IMG/VR virus record: IMGVR_UViG_3300021960_000397
Coordinates: 1-27,601 of that record
Length of the DNA: 27,601 bases
Reading direction: 5' to 3' (one strand)
Origin: a virus
A program made the translations under genes and the position numbers. Under the pieces are notes generated by a model. It saw only the letters and a program-made list of their open reading frames with translations. It was not told where the DNA came from and did no database searches. Shown in pieces: positions 9,323 through 27,310 of the stretch. Numbering within the stretch: position 1 is the first letter of the stretch; every line of letters starts with the position of its first letter.

Positions 9323-9399
9323 GGTCTTGTAGTTCAATTGGTTAGAGCACCCGCCTGTCACGCGGGAAGTTGCGGGTTCGAGTCCCGTCAAGACCGCCA
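9323..9399 (+). tRNA. tRNA-Asp (anticodon GUC)
   Basis: A complete cloverleaf of 77 bases can be written. The acceptor stem GGTCTTG/CAAGACC (9323-9329 with 9389-9395) is perfect. The D-arm includes GGTTA, the anticodon stem is CCCGC/GCGGG (9350-9354 with 9362-9366), and the loop CTGTCAC places GTC at 9357-9359. The T-loop is TTCGAGT, the discriminator base is G, and CCA is encoded at 9397-9399. All invariant bases are present, so it should be charged and functional. It lies in the sense direction between the scaffold and capsid genes, inside the structural operon, and would be cut out by RNase P and 3' processing. Confidence 0.97.
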
Positions 9400-15232: not shown

Positions 15233-17413
15233 ATGGTTAGAATAGTCAGACCAGAAGGCCAGCCCCAACAAGGTAGAGCCAGCATCAACCAATCACTAGC
15301 TGCTACAGCTGGTTCTGGTTTAGGTGCCTTAGGCAGCGCGGTTGCTGCTGCAGGTAGAGCAGTGCAACAACTAGATCCAGGTGCAGGTTCTCGTAAGATA
15401 GGCAAGATGGCTGAGGTTGAAAGTAAGAAGTACTTTGACGAGACCAAAAGAGCACACCAATCAGCTATGCTGTCTAACTCAATGAATGATGCTACACTTG
15501 AGTTCATGAAAGCACAACAACAACGTGTATCACAAGTACAGGACGACAAAGGTAACCCTACGTTCATGTCCCTTACCGATGATATCGGACAGTTAGGTAA
15601 AGATACTGCAGATCGTATCAGTAAGAATATCTCAGACCCTGAGGTTGCTGCTGCGTTTAAAGCTAAGTTCCAGAACTATACATCTAAGCAACAGGTACTG
15701 TCTCTTAAGACTGCACGTACACAGCAAGTAGGTTTCGCTCGTGCTTCTTTAGATAAGGGACTTGGTGGTTTAGCTATTCAGGGAACCAGTGATGACCTAG
15801 CTAACCTAGAGTCATACATAGGTCAAGGGCATCAACAACTTAATGAAGCCTTACAGTCTGGTGCCATCTCTCCTGAGGAACATCAGAATAGGCTAGAAGA
15901 CTTCGTACTTACTACTAGGTCTGGTGCTTATGAGAATGTAATAGACCAGGACACTACAGCTGCCAGCGCTTTGCTGAGCCAGAATGCAGAGTCACTAGGA
16001 ATTACTGAGAAGGCTAGAGATCAATTAAACAGAACTCTTGATGCTAAAATTAGGGCTGATGAGATTGAAGCCAAGAAAGCAGCCGCTACTTTACAGAGAG
16101 AGCATAAGAACCAACAAGCATTATTGATACAAGATGCTGAACTAAGAATGGAGACTGATAGTCTTCGTGAAGATGACCTGCTTAAGATGGAAGATCAATT
16201 AGATCCTCTAGCCTTCGGTAAGTTAAAGCTTAAGTTTGTTAAACACGCTAGACAGTCTGCTAAGACTAATGCTAAGATGTCACAAGTCAGTGATCTCATA
16301 TCTTCTGGTGGCAGTACGGATGGCGTATCACCTAAGACAGTTGATGAGCATTACAAACGTATGACAGAGTCACAACAATTAGCTACGGGTAAGGCTCCTG
16401 GTCTTCCTCAAAGAGCTCAGATCGCAGCCAGCTATAACGGTAAGGTCAGAGGGTTCGCTAAGGAAGTAAGCCAGTCCTTGTTATCTGGTGACCCTGCATC
16501 TGCTGCTGAAGCTGTAAGTGCATACACATATATCAGAGACCGTGATTCTAAAGCTCTTGATGGTAACATCTTCACCAACAAAGCTGAGGCTGTAGCTGAA
16601 TATGCTGAGCTTCTTAGTGAGCGTGGTGGCATGAAGCTTGAGGATGCAGTTCAGGTAGCTAAGGAAGCTGTACTAACTGCTGATGATCCTATCCAAAAGG
16701 AACGTAACAAACAGTTCCGTAAGATCAAGGACTTCAAGTTAGACAGACTAGAAGAGACTACTGCTGATGACCTAGACGCTGAAAACTTCTTTGGTGTTAA
16801 CAAGGCTGTAAGTACTGATTCTCAAATGACTTATAGAAGATTCGTACAAGAAGCTTACGTAGCTACTGGAGACGAAGACGCTGCACGGAAGATAGCTAAG
16901 AACAAGATGGATAAGACACATGCTGTATCTGCCTTCAACGGTGATGAACAGTATATGTTTGCTCCTCCTTCTAAGTTATTCCCTAACATACCAGAGCAAG
17001 CACTTAGATCTCAGATGGAAGAACAGATGATTCCCTTTATTCCTCAAGGACTTGAAGGTAAAGACATGATGATCTTCTCTGACAGAACTACTCTTGGTAC
17101 TAAAGTAACCTTGCGTAATACTGAAACTGGTGCTATAATACATAAAGAAGTACCAAGCTATGGTATTCAATACATGAAAGAGATAGCACCTGGTGTTATG
17201 GTTGCTACTCCTTTGGTTGACCCTAAGACTGGTAGTCTAGTAAGATGGTACCCAGAAGAAGGTGAAGCGAAGCAAAGGCTTATGAAGGAAAGAGAAGAAG
17301 GACGTGCAGCCAAGGGATCTTCTGCTGTTGAGGCAGATAAGATCAAGAGAGCACAACAGAAGCTTGGTGTAGACGAAGCAGGTCACACGCTGTTTGGCGT
17401 AACAACTAAGTAA
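15233..17413 (+). CDS. Internal virion protein, gp15-like ejection protein
   Basis: The product has 726 residues, soluble and mostly helical, with long Gln/Ala/Lys-rich segments and coiled-coil potential (about residues 60-110 and 270-330). The C-terminal 100 residues are more beta-like, then basic. Length and place match T7 gp15 (747 residues), the periplasmic tunnel protein of the ejectosome. I see no lytic transglycosylase or peptidase motif. The C-terminus (LGVDEAGHTLFGVTTK) is unusual but not diagnostic. ATG 15233 has AGGAGG in front. Function is inferred from synteny with T7-like phages. Confidence 0.8.
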   Translation: MVRIVRPEGQPQQGRASINQSLAATAGSGLGALGSAVAAAGRAVQQLDPGAGSRKIGKMAEVESKKYFDETKRAHQSAMLSNSMNDATLEFMKAQQQRVSQVQDDKGNPTFMSLTDDIGQLGKDTADRISKNISDPEVAAAFKAKFQNYTSKQQVLSLKTARTQQVGFARASLDKGLGGLAIQGTSDDLANLESYIGQGHQQLNEALQSGAISPEEHQNRLEDFVLTTRSGAYENVIDQDTTAASALLSQNAESLGITEKARDQLNRTLDAKIRADEIEAKKAAATLQREHKNQQALLIQDAELRMETDSLREDDLLKMEDQLDPLAFGKLKLKFVKHARQSAKTNAKMSQVSDLISSGGSTDGVSPKTVDEHYKRMTESQQLATGKAPGLPQRAQIAASYNGKVRGFAKEVSQSLLSGDPASAAEAVSAYTYIRDRDSKALDGNIFTNKAEAVAEYAELLSERGGMKLEDAVQVAKEAVLTADDPIQKERNKQFRKIKDFKLDRLEETTADDLDAENFFGVNKAVSTDSQMTYRRFVQEAYVATGDEDAARKIAKNKMDKTHAVSAFNGDEQYMFAPPSKLFPNIPEQALRSQMEEQMIPFIPQGLEGKDMMIFSDRTTLGTKVTLRNTETGAIIHKEVPSYGIQYMKEIAPGVMVATPLVDPKTGSLVRWYPEEGEAKQRLMKEREEGRAAKGSSAVEADKIKRAQQKLGVDEAGHTLFGVTTK

Positions 17414-22658: not shown

Positions 22659-23129
22659 TTAAGCTGGATAGTGGTCCCTAGCTAACTGGAAATGGGGGCC
22701 ATCCATGAAAGGTGTCTTACCTTTACTTCGTCTTAGGTCAACGTAGTTATTGGACAATTGCCTTGCGCTGCATTGAGCGTCAGTAAGGTATGTATGCCAA
22801 GCTGCGCCCCACACAATCGTAACACCTAATTGAGTAGCTGCCTGTCTCATGGCCTCTGCTACTTGATAGATTGGTGTCCAGTCCCAACTAATCCTACCAT
22901 CGATATAAGGTACCAAGTCCACTGCGTGGCCTGTGATGTGCCTAGAATCCATTGTCTTAGAAGCCCCTGACCTTACAAGCTTAAGCTGTCTTTCCGTCGT
23001 ACGAAGCCCCTCAATCACAGCAAAGTCTACTGTAGTATACTGTAGTGCTAATCGTACTACTGCTACTAGATCCTCATGAACTCCCTCTAAACTCTTCTCT
23101 GATCTTCTGCCGAATTTATAGTTACTCAT
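22659..23129 (-). CDS. Endolysin, M15-type L-alanyl-D-glutamate peptidase
   Basis: The 156-residue product cleaves peptide stems of peptidoglycan at the end of infection. It has the M15 zinc peptidase motif SRHITGHAVDLV (residues 62-73), giving ligands His64 and Asp71, with the third ligand His146 in GPHFQL. An upstream EGLRTTERQ block (40-48) and VWGAAW (106-111, where relatives have WGGDW) complete the VanY/T5-endolysin pattern. There is no signal peptide or cell-wall-binding domain, so export must depend on a holin. The start overlaps the end of the DUF1289 gene, whose AGGAGG provides the ribosome binding site. It is the last gene of the leftward operon and ends 14 bases from the converging + strand gene. 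Confidence 0.93.
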   Translation of the reverse strand: MSNYKFGRRSEKSLEGVHEDLVAVVRLALQYTTVDFAVIEGLRTTERQLKLVRSGASKTMDSRHITGHAVDLVPYIDGRISWDWTPIYQVAEAMRQAATQLGVTIVWGAAWHTYLTDAQCSARQLSNNYVDLRRSKGKTPFMDGPHFQLARDHYPA

Positions 23130-24462: not shown

Positions 24463-24752
24463 AATATATCTGCTCCTGATTCATTCACTGTTTCCCAGAA
24501 TGATTCTCTTACTTCACTTATTAGAGTACCTTCCTCCTCAGTTAGTTCCCTCTTGCCAGATGGGTGCTGGTTATATTTATCCATAGTGCGCAGCTTCTGG
24601 CCAAACTCCTCTAGTGCAGCATGCAACTGATGTGCTTGCATCATCATATTATATGTGTACAGTTGTGATTCATCGCCCATGTCAAATGTCATAGTAACCA
24701 TAGGACCAGGCACCCGTGCTTCTTCTTCATAATCGTAGTGGTGTATGTTCAT
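24459..24752 (-). CDS. Hypothetical acidic phage protein
   Basis: The product has 97 residues. The first 35 are beta-like (VTMTFDMGDESQ), the rest helical, with HAALEEFGQKLRTMDKY (about 44-60) and a C-terminal helix ending near residue 96. The pattern E-F-x-x-x-LR...KY...E-x-x-x-x-VR-x-x-F is a recurring one among small unannotated phage proteins. It overlaps the holin stop at its own start (ATGA), so it is probably translated by coupling. It lies in the lysis cluster, but its soluble nature gives no hint of a lysis role. Function unknown. Confidence 0.65.
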   Translation of the reverse strand: MNIHHYDYEEEARVPGPMVTMTFDMGDESQLYTYNMMMQAHQLHAALEEFGQKLRTMDKYNQHPSGKRELTEEEGTLISEVRESFWETVNESGADIL

Positions 24753-25117
24753 TTGCGTTTCTCCACTGATCTGCCTATACCGTATATGCCAAGGAAGGCA
24801 CCTGAGATCTGAGCTAGGAACTCATTCATTGGAACAAAGCCCATGCCCATAGCAATCAGGAGACAGGTAAGACCTAAACTAACTATCGGTCTCCATGACT
24901 TGCTTAATAGATTACCATGTTGCTGCTCAGCTTTAGCCACTGAAGCGTTAGCCTCAATGACTGTGCTCTGTAGCTCCATCATCTTAATACTAACCTGTGC
25001 TTCTATCTGTGCTAACTGATTACGTAACTGCATTCGTTCCTCATCTGAGGTATGTACGTTATCAATCAGGTCAGCAGCAGGTTTAAAGATATCACCTAAG
25101 AACCCGAATAAACTCAT
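24749..25117 (-). CDS. Holin, Holin_3TMs-type
   Basis: The 122-residue product is the likely pore former that releases the endolysin. Residues 1-70 are soluble and helical: FGFLGDIFKPAADLIDNVHTS is the family's start, followed by a charged coiled-coil-like helix with a KAEQQHGN-L-SKSWRPIVSL junction (about 68-87). Two hydrophobic helices (about 82-97 and 101-116) follow with a short polar link, and a basic EKRK end. The SWRP motif before the first helix is diagnostic of this holin family. It overlaps both neighbours by ATGA. It is the strongest holin candidate in the window. Confidence 0.88.
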   Translation of the reverse strand: MSLFGFLGDIFKPAADLIDNVHTSDEERMQLRNQLAQIEAQVSIKMMELQSTVIEANASVAKAEQQHGNLLSKSWRPIVSLGLTCLLIAMGMGFVPMNEFLAQISGAFLGIYGIGRSVEKRK

Positions 25118-25644
25118 GTGTCCTCCTCGTGGATAAGACCACGTTTAATTCTAGTGTACATCATTAACGCTCTAGTTGCAAGGTGTAACAGTGGATCAAT
25201 CCCTGTTTCCTTATCTTCCCTTACACCAGAACTAGACTCTGCTAAGTGCCTAAACATACTGGCGTGCATATCTTTATGGCTTGACTTAGACCCATTAGGG
25301 GATGCCCAATTGGCATCTCCCCCAGGTTTGTCATGCTTCCTAGCACCGAACTCTACTACAGTTAAGAAGTCGTAGAACTCAGGAGACATGTACTTCATGT
25401 TAACATTAATCTCCTCATCCTCAAAGGGATCATAGAAGTTACCCATATCATCTATTGAGTCTGGCCACTCATCATCGCTGTAGTCTACGTCTAAGTCTTT
25501 CAGCAACAGAGGCTCATCATACAGTCCCATGTCCTGGTTCTTCTCTGCTAGGTAGTCTAGCTTCTTCTCTCTTTCCATCTTCTGCCACAGATAGTCTTCA
25601 TCTACCCTATCCCAGTCTATGTCATCCCACGTTTTATTACTCAT
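25114..25644 (-). CDS. dATP/dGTP diphosphohydrolase-like (DUF5664, MazG-related)
   Basis: The product has 176 residues. The C-terminal half (about 80-172) has the signature of the dATP/dGTP diphosphohydrolase N-terminal family (formerly DUF5664): VVEFGARKHDKPGGDANW, then MFRHLAESSSG, then DKETGIDPLLHLATRALMM. Family members hydrolyse dNTPs to dNMPs, and the related MazZ serves phages that replace adenine by 2-aminoadenine. The N-terminal 75 residues are acidic and Asp/Glu/Tyr-rich, unlike the usual short N-terminus. The ATG at 25644 has AGGAG 7 bases upstream and overlaps the stop of the ATPase gene; a longer start is less likely. No purZ or datZ is visible in this window. Confidence 0.75.
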   Translation of the reverse strand: MSNKTWDDIDWDRVDEDYLWQKMEREKKLDYLAEKNQDMGLYDEPLLLKDLDVDYSDDEWPDSIDDMGNFYDPFEDEEINVNMKYMSPEFYDFLTVVEFGARKHDKPGGDANWASPNGSKSSHKDMHASMFRHLAESSSGVREDKETGIDPLLHLATRALMMYTRIKRGLIHEEDT

Positions 25645-26590
25645 CGTCATCTCCTGGAAACGGACATTCAAACTTCATGTTGTAGATATCATCTTCTAAC
25701 CATTTATCTACAGCTGACTGAAGTCCTCGTGCACCTGTGCCCTTACTGTCTGCCTCATCAACCATCTTCCTAATGTAATAGTTAGATGCTTGCATCTCAT
25801 ATCCTAAGAAATCACACATCTCTTTATATTCAGGTAAGATATGATCTACTAGTATAGACCTTAACTGCTTCCTGTCAAGTCTATCTAACTCCCCTATGCT
25901 GGATATCCTACCTACCAGCTGGGTAATCATACCTCCCTTCTCTAGCTGCTGATGCAGGTCAACTACAGGTGGCTGTATCTCACCACTGAATCCCATAGCT
26001 GGCTTGGCTCTGGCTGCTGCTAAGTGTCTGATCTGAGGAAAGTTACCAGCAAACACAAACATCATACTACTTGTGTCTAGGTGTTGGTCCTTAGCTACTG
26101 GTAGTTTCATTCCCTCTACTATCTTTAACAAACCATACTGAGTCTTACGGTTATGGTCTGTCCCTGACTTGCCCACAGCAGGCATACACATCTTATCTAC
26201 TTCATCTAAGAACACTACTGTAGATGCTAGTGCAAACTTATCACGCCAGTTGGCACGGTAATGCTCTTCTAGTAAGTCTTGTACATCGTCACCCTCCCAA
26301 CCTCTGGCGCTTAATGATGTACAGTCAATCTCTAGCAGGGGTGCCATCTTATACTTTGATATCTCACCTACTGCCTTGATTGCTTCTCTTACTATCAGTG
26401 TCTTACCACTACCACTTGGCCCCATGAGTAGAGAGTTAGACTTTTTAAACTGCTTGCCTCCCATCCCTAAGCTCATGCATCTTGCAAAGTGTAGAAACAT
26501 AGCCGTACTAATAACCCGCCTGGCTTGCTTCTGCCCTACCACAGACTCACCAATATACTCGTTGATCTTCTTCGGACTGATTATATTCAT
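25637..26590 (-). CDS. ClpX-like AAA+ ATPase without zinc domain
   Basis: The 317-residue product is probably a protein unfoldase. Its motifs follow ClpX order: VVGQ (17-20), Walker A GPSGSGKT (57-64), pore loop GWEG (97-100, GYVG in ClpX), Walker B VVFLDE (125-130), QYGLLKIVEG (151-160), sensor 1 near FVFAGN (178-183), MGF (199-201) where ClpX has its IGF ClpP-docking loop, arginine finger in VGRIS (Arg228) and sensor 2 GARGL (286-290). The N-terminal zinc-binding domain is missing, and the loop equivalent to the RKH loop is shortened. It may redirect host ClpP or act alone on phage or host proteins. GGAGAG precedes the ATG; the next gene overlaps. Confidence 0.88.
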   Translation of the reverse strand: MNIISPKKINEYIGESVVGQKQARRVISTAMFLHFARCMSLGMGGKQFKKSNSLLMGPSGSGKTLIVREAIKAVGEISKYKMAPLLEIDCTSLSARGWEGDDVQDLLEEHYRANWRDKFALASTVVFLDEVDKMCMPAVGKSGTDHNRKTQYGLLKIVEGMKLPVAKDQHLDTSSMMFVFAGNFPQIRHLAAARAKPAMGFSGEIQPPVVDLHQQLEKGGMITQLVGRISSIGELDRLDRKQLRSILVDHILPEYKEMCDFLGYEMQASNYYIRKMVDEADSKGTGARGLQSAVDKWLEDDIYNMKFECPFPGDDDE

Positions 26591-26599
26591 AGTCTCTCC

Positions 26600-27310
26600 T
26601 TAGTACACTTTGCCAACCCACTTACCTTTACTGTCTAAGTACATGGGAATTAGTCTAGGTATTCCATTCTCAATCACACCGATACCTAAGATAGGTCGCT
26701 TAGTCTGTAGCTTATTATACTCAAAAGCTAATGCCTTGTGGTCAATCAAGCAACCTACTGTCATGCCCCAGTTCAATGAGCGTGGGCTAGATGTATACGC
26801 TATCTCGAACTTGGAATGGTAATGACCTTGTACACAGGACATCCCCATCTGTTCGGCTGCTTTGAGTACGTTGGCTGCGAACTGGTGCTTGAAGATGATG
26901 TCTTGAACCTTGTGCGCCTTAACAATAATTTCTTCGTGCCACTGCCAGCCGTCGTCAACAAGTAAGACATCGTTATAGTCCTTTAAGAAGTGTCTAGGAA
27001 TCCCACCTGCTTTACCTCGACGGTAGCTAAGTGAGCCGTGGTTACTGTGCACTAGGTCCATCTTAGGAAATATCTTCTTTAATTCCTTGACACCTTTCTG
27101 TGCTGCAATTAACTCATCACCTGGTGAAAGTAAATCAGGATCACTATCATGAAAAGATATACCATGATTATCCACTTCATCACCAATGTTAATGATACGT
27201 GTTGGGTCAAAGCTTTTCTTCACTGCCTTCAAGAAAGCAAATGAATCAGGATGATGGTACGGCATATGAAGGTCGCTTATTACTAGAATACGTTTATCTT
27301 TAGCTCTCAT
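26600..27310 (-). CDS. Calcineurin-like metallophosphoesterase
   Basis: The product has 236 residues with all ligands of a dinuclear metal centre: DLH (Asp13, His15), GDEVD (Asp44), SNHG (Asn90, His91; usually GNHD/E), His142 in KHQF, and GHYH (His163, His165). It would hydrolyse phosphomonoesters, diesters or nucleotides; the substrate cannot be read from sequence. Phage members of this group have been considered DNA- or nucleotide-processing. Its neighbours, the ClpX-like ATPase and a dNTP diphosphohydrolase-like enzyme, suggest a nucleic acid or nucleotide role. Its start overlaps the end of the upstream zinc-ribbon gene, and it is followed by the ATPase after 9 bases. Confidence 0.9.
   Translation of the reverse strand: MRAKDKRILVISDLHMPYHHPDSFAFLKAVKKSFDPTRIINIGDEVDNHGISFHDSDPDLLSPGDELIAAQKGVKELKKIFPKMDLVHSNHGSLSYRRGKAGGIPRHFLKDYNDVLLVDDGWQWHEEIIVKAHKVQDIIFKHQFAANVLKAAEQMGMSCVQGHYHSKFEIAYTSSPRSLNWGMTVGCLIDHKALAFEYNKLQTKRPILGIGVIENGIPRLIPMYLDSKGKWVGKVY

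Follow-up and report, generated by a model that had tools for sequence, protein, structure and literature searches.

Which proteins and which peptidase would a virus-encoded ClpX serve

ClpX is the motor that delivers proteins to the bacterial ClpP protease, and a ClpX-like open reading frame (ORF) in a viral sequence raises the question of which peptidase such a motor would feed and with which proteins. The ORF lies in the window, meaning the whole 27,601 bases of the viral IMG/VR record IMGVR_UViG_3300021960_000397:

25637..26590, minus strand: ClpX-like AAA+ unfoldase (317 aa, ATG start, strong Shine-Dalgarno sequence)

The Shine-Dalgarno sequence, AAGGAG, was located ~5 nt 5' of the ATG. 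The best NCBIfam model for the predicted protein was ClpX (E = 1.5e-41), with a score of 142.6 bits (rounded to 143) that falls below the equivalog cutoff of 359 bits for that model. ClpX also topped the list in a phmmer search of the PDB (E = 6e-27), with HslU well behind, and identity to Escherichia coli ClpX was ~27%. Alignment to E. coli ClpX located the elements of a ClpX-type AAA+ core (Walker A, Walker B, arginine finger, and sensor 2) at the following positions:

26399..26422, minus strand: Walker A GPSGSGKT, residues 57 to 64
26201..26218, minus strand: Walker B VVFLDE, residues 125 to 130
25907..25909, minus strand: arginine finger R228 (ClpX R307)
25727..25732, minus strand: sensor 2 A287-R288 (ClpX GAR, with R370 corresponding to R288)

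Within these motifs, K63 aligned with ClpX K125, and D129 and E130 aligned with D184 and E185. By homology, the ORF encodes a ClpX-family AAA+ ATPase with intact ATPase residues, as the original prediction had stated of its motifs; seven residues inserted behind the Walker A helix had not been reported there.

The better of the AlphaFold2 models was built from an alignment of 27 sequences (mean pLDDT, 81.6) and matched ClpX chains in the PDB at a TM score of ~0.8, with ClpX accounting for all 50 of the best matches, a likeness that was partly built in, as the alignment included ClpX rows. The 50 best PDB matches of an earlier model, whose alignment held a single ClpX row, were likewise ClpX. 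With the smaller alignment, residues 186 to 220 were modeled at low confidence.

Viral relatives of the unfoldase

Portal, capsid, and gene order place the window phage, at the level of sequence, with the T7-like podoviruses, and a capsid-based scan of viral contigs recovered its own group. The nearest named phage by portal protein was Pelagibacter phage Baldr (35%), and no named phage matched the window by megablast. The 27.6-kb window contains no replication region and was therefore taken as an incomplete fragment.

Whole-record searches of the group identified relatives of the unfoldase in the records designated G039 (42% identity) and G037 (38%) and a more distant one in G044 (34%); a further relative, L165 (40%), was added by a conserved-block scan. 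The proteins of the window, G039, L165, and G037 formed one clade (support, 96/99) outside the set of ClpX, HslU, and G044 sequences. HslU rows formed their own supported branch, which did not include the unfoldase, and short N4-type ATPases formed a separate branch; the tree was midpoint rooted and is not read for the order of its deep splits. Looking for the same gene in related phages, a check proposed with the original prediction, thus yielded three viral relatives (37 to 42% identity) from the same podovirus group. Traits common to the four clade members were a GW pore-1 loop, an [MI]GF tripeptide, the absence of a zinc domain, and a PF18909 gene downstream.

No unfoldase match was found in group records G041 (37 kb) and G043 (19 kb), both of which may be fragments. 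Named phages contained many Clp ATPases, none more than ~30% identical to the unfoldase, and the cellular genomes sampled contained only canonical ClpX, at ≤30% identity. Searching viral contigs with the unfoldase protein as a single sequence recovered no relative, a DNA pattern for GWEGDDV occurred in 11 contigs, 0 of which had a ClpX-like ORF, and relatives found by portal or phosphoesterase were without an unfoldase gene. An exact 30-base probe near the right end of the window retrieved no overlapping contig, and models of defense systems gave general AAA+ matches only. By inspection, the G041 contig carries tyrosine-recombinase-like and TetR-like regulator ORFs (L155:11594-12202 and 15336-16052), hinting at a temperate relative.

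Gene neighborhood

The unfoldase is part of a minus-strand gene run which, in order of transcription, comprises a phosphoesterase, the unfoldase, a PF18909 gene, a holin, small ORFs, a DUF7338 protein, and an endolysin:

26600..27310, minus strand: metallophosphoesterase, upstream neighbor of the unfoldase
25114..25644, minus strand: dATP/dGTP diphosphohydrolase N-terminal-like gene (PF18909), overlapping the unfoldase stop
24749..25117, minus strand: holin with three transmembrane segments (PF11351), downstream in the run
22659..23129, minus strand: M15 endolysin, end of the run

The start of the PF18909 gene overlaps the unfoldase stop in ATGAGTAA. The unfoldase had been described as cotranscribed with nucleotide enzymes and lysis genes; the gene order, shared direction, and overlaps agree with this description, and cotranscription itself would follow by inference from them. 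The PF18909 gene was immediately downstream of the unfoldase in four of four clade members (L151:7564-7869, L152:7217-7558, and L165:1408-1701 in the relatives) and was not found in G041, G043, or G044; the association may be simple linkage. Elsewhere in the window, ARAGORN predicted a tRNA-Asp (GTC) at positions 9323-9399 on the plus strand, between scaffolding-like and major capsid genes.

Loss and alteration of substrate-recognition elements

In ClpX, degrons are read with the help of the RKH and pore-2 loops, the former indispensable in E. coli for substrates tagged with ssrA, and the polypeptide chain is gripped by the pore-1 tyrosine (PMC7112952). The corresponding positions in the unfoldase were located by alignment:

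26291..26302, minus strand: pore-1 loop GWEG, residues 97 to 100 (ClpX GYVG, 152 to 155)
26141..26170, minus strand: altered pore-2 loop KSGTDHNRKT, residues 141 to 150, replacing ClpX SITRDVSGEGV
26078..26107, minus strand: site of the deleted RKH loop, residues 162 to 171, KLPVAKDQHL

The N-terminal zinc-binding domain was absent, in agreement with the original reading: residue 4 of the unfoldase corresponds to ClpX residue 65, only 3 residues precede the P65 position, and nothing aligned to ClpX residues before it. The reported change of the pore loop from GYVG to GWEG was also borne out, with W98 aligned to ClpX Y153 and E99 to V154. Among 107 aligned rows, GW at pore-1 was restricted to the four-member clade, in which the aromatic is followed by E, A, A, or Q at a position occupied by V or I in ClpX; such residues beside the pore-1 aromatic could weaken the grip. 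Two further changes had not been noticed earlier, namely, the replacement of the ClpX pore-2 segment SITRDVSGEGVQ by KSGTDHNRKTQ and the deletion of the RKH loop, which was not present in the unfoldase when aligned to ClpX.

With the RKH loop deleted and pore-2 rewritten, most of the ssrA-recognition surface is, on the alignment, lost. A changed substrate choice of the ClpX-like unfoldase, which had been proposed originally, is well supported by homology and by the concerted way in which the zinc domain, the RKH loop, pore-2, and the pore-1 hydrophobic residue have been lost or changed. In the absence of the zinc domain and RKH loop, and with pore-2 rewritten, substrates tagged with ssrA or delivered by SspB would be predicted to go unhandled.

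The loss of several ClpX elements would also be expected of a recently acquired or decaying copy of host ClpX that has no function. This explanation is highly improbable, as the catalytic residues are all kept in four proteins that are ~40% identical, the synteny is conserved, the ribosome-binding site is strong, the ORF overlaps the next gene, and even the nearest cellular sequences sampled do not exceed 30% identity.

Retention of the ClpP-docking tripeptide

The original prediction placed MGF at the position of the ClpX IGF loop, and alignment to I268-G269-F270 of E. coli ClpX gave the same position:

25988..25996, minus strand: MGF tripeptide, residues 199 to 201

G200 and F201 were invariant in the window, G039, L165, and G037 and were also found in G044 and E. 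coli ClpX; the first position was M, M, I, and I in the four clade members. The surrounding loop has drifted: over residues 185 to 219, the window protein matched G039 at 11/35 positions, L165 at 11/33, and G037 at 7/35, so that the docking loop was 20 to 33% identical within the clade, versus 38 to 41% over the full protein. Invariance of [MI]GF within so poorly conserved a loop supports the maintenance of a ClpP-docking loop. Across the 107 aligned rows, the tripeptide was IGF in 62, MGF in 26, and LGF in 8, and 23 of the 26 MGF rows were canonical ClpX sequences outside the clade, from sampled cellular and viral loci. The GF loop was missing from the N4-type and HslU-like rows of this alignment; as HslU, whose partner is HslV, is without it, its retention in the unfoldase is informative.

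In the AlphaFold2 model, residues 199 to 202 were the sole segment with a pLDDT below 50 and formed the coil tip between two helices, which speaks against burial of MGF as far as the model goes. The loop after GF is ~10 residues shorter than in ClpX, a difference not described before. Had relatives been without the tripeptide, the case for docking would have weakened; all four clade members keep [MI]GF. Together with the MGF of 23 canonical ClpX sequences, this supports the original reading of MGF as a putative ClpP-docking tripeptide, one of an ordinary kind for ClpX and apparently maintained by constraint.

A motor of this kind might instead act without any peptidase, as a stand-alone chaperone remodeling, for example, replication or assembly complexes, with MGF either vestigial or competing with host ClpX for ClpP. 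Host ClpX remodels Mu transposase complexes, the unfoldase follows an exonuclease-like gene in G037 (phrog_403) and L165 (by similarity), and short N4-type and T5-like phage relatives are without the loop altogether, which makes peptidase-free use in phages plausible. Stand-alone remodeling is nevertheless considered unlikely, in that nothing else in the drifting loop of these four divergent proteins is as well conserved as GF, which is not what a vestige would show.

Candidate peptidase partners

No match to Clp protease (PF00574) or to an HslV-like family (phrog_1040) was found within the 27.6-kb window. As the window is a fragment without the replication region, a phage-encoded partner may lie beyond its end, and candidate genes were found in two relatives:

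L160:11890-12519: ClpP-like serine protease (G037)
L153:6289-6969: ClpP-like serine protease (G044)
L152:4003-4635: HslV-like protein (G037; phrog_1040, E = 9.5e-13), located three genes upstream of that phage's own GF-bearing ClpX-like gene

The two ClpP-like proteins were 30% identical over 129 residues, and the catalytic Ser and His of both aligned with those of E. coli ClpP. Both have an N-terminal hydrophobic segment (by inspection and hydropathy), which in G044 ends in a lipobox-like IAAC (by inspection), and from these sequences both proteins are probably membrane anchored. With such N termini, outward anchoring is possible and the proteins may not meet a cytoplasmic motor. The phage ClpP-like genes were the obvious candidates but, for their N-terminal hydrophobic segments, were set aside as proof of a partner. 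In G044, the ClpP-like gene is overlapped by a peptide deformylase gene (L153:6932-7540; PF01327, E = 4.9e-29).

An unfoldase working with a ClpP- or HslV-like peptidase encoded elsewhere in the phage genome would make up a complete viral protease. Consistent with this, G037 has a ClpP-like gene adjoining the holin gene in addition to the HslV-like gene, the ClpP-like gene of G044 is near that phage's own ClpX-like gene, gp257 (ClpP-like) adjoins gp258 (ClpX-like) in Bacillus phage G, and EarlPhillipIV has an HslV-family gene along with an HslU-like gene. Such a viral protease is nonetheless judged unlikely. Beyond the negative result for the window, no ClpP- or HslV-like gene was found in G039 or L165, both of which are fragments, and both phage ClpP-like proteins, with their hydrophobic segment or lipobox, may face the periplasm. 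The HslV-like assignment in G037 depends on a single PHROG family; BLAST against E. coli HslV yielded no significant match and a PDB search yielded nothing, and an HslV partner would leave retention of the GF loop unexplained.

Host ClpP is the simplest partner, and its capture by the unfoldase is plausible from the sequence. Under the mechanism proposed here, a small podovirus would make a minimal, ATPase-competent ClpX-type unfoldase that assembles as a hexamer; its MGF loops would dock into hydrophobic pockets on a ClpP tetradecamer, most probably the host's own; and, for want of the zinc/adaptor domain and RKH loop and with its pore loops altered, it would unfold and feed to ClpP a different set of substrates than host ClpX does. 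The chances that this mechanism as a whole is correct are put at about even. Observed in its favor are homology, ATPase residues that are intact, the loss of recognition elements, an [MI]GF conserved throughout the clade, and synteny. A more specific version, in which this lineage of small podoviruses uses its own exchangeable minimal ClpX to displace host ClpX on ClpP, selects substrates through the GW pore, and retargets ClpP rather than inhibiting it, is offered tentatively and with some doubt.

A protein consisting of motor and docking loop only would offer a natural way to learn which ClpX parts suffice for coupling to ClpP. It would also be a route to new degrons and to the host proteins that the virus wants removed, and, if the swap onto host ClpP is true, it could serve as a compact tool for redirecting protein degradation in bacterial cells.

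Comparison with known systems

Small adaptor-like proteins are a known means by which phages modulate host Clp proteases, and a nearly complete ClpX is encoded by jumbo phages. The unfoldase resembles E. coli ClpX (b0438) in Walker A and B, the arginine finger, sensor 2, a G-aromatic-x-G pore-1 loop, the GF tripeptide, and the fold (TM score, ~0.8) but differs in having no zinc domain and no RKH loop, another pore-2, W and E for Y and V in pore-1, and a shorter docking loop. The ClpX proteins of jumbo phages (Bacillus phage G gp258, Atu_ph07 gp2, and PA5oct) are likewise virus encoded and have (I/L/M)GF; unlike the unfoldase, they are near full length, with a zinc domain, GYVG, and mostly an RKH-type loop, and their genomes are 280 to 500 kb, whereas the window phage is a small podovirus. 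The ClpX of Salicola phage SCTP-2 has lost the RKH loop, as has the unfoldase.

Jumbo-phage ClpX and ClpP genes have been published, with proposed roles in replication, virion assembly, and host targeting (PMC6102473, PMC7824862). A precedent for phage modulation of a host Clp protease is SPO1 Gp53, which acts on host ClpCP (PMC6873191); like the unfoldase as interpreted here, it is a phage factor changing a host Clp protease, but it is an adaptor-like protein on ClpC and itself no unfoldase. In a literature search of partial coverage, no paper was found that describes a ClpX encoded by a small podovirus. What is new, as read from sequence comparison, is a reduced, clade-specific putative ClpX in small podoviruses that has lost recognition elements and kept the docking tripeptide.

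HslU and the HslU-like ATPases of jumbo phages (Machina, EarlPhillipIV, and Special G) share with the unfoldase an AAA+ core and a compact N terminus without a zinc domain; the RKH loop is also absent from HslU, Machina, and EarlPhillipIV, and the best PHROG match of the unfoldase was PHROG 4339, of the HslU-like group. HslU and its relatives have no GF loop and have a domain inserted between pore-1 and Walker B, the opposite of the unfoldase. Membership in HslU was ruled out by the missing I-domain insertion, the GF loop, and the separate tree branch. The short N4-type and T5-like phage ATPases (LUZ7 ORF36, PEV2 gp31, and Stubb gp123), annotated as Clp ATPase in several records, are also small phage AAA+ proteins (260 to 280 aa) but differ in their separate tree branch, the absence of a GF loop, and pore sequences of GLSG, GVSG, and GYSG.
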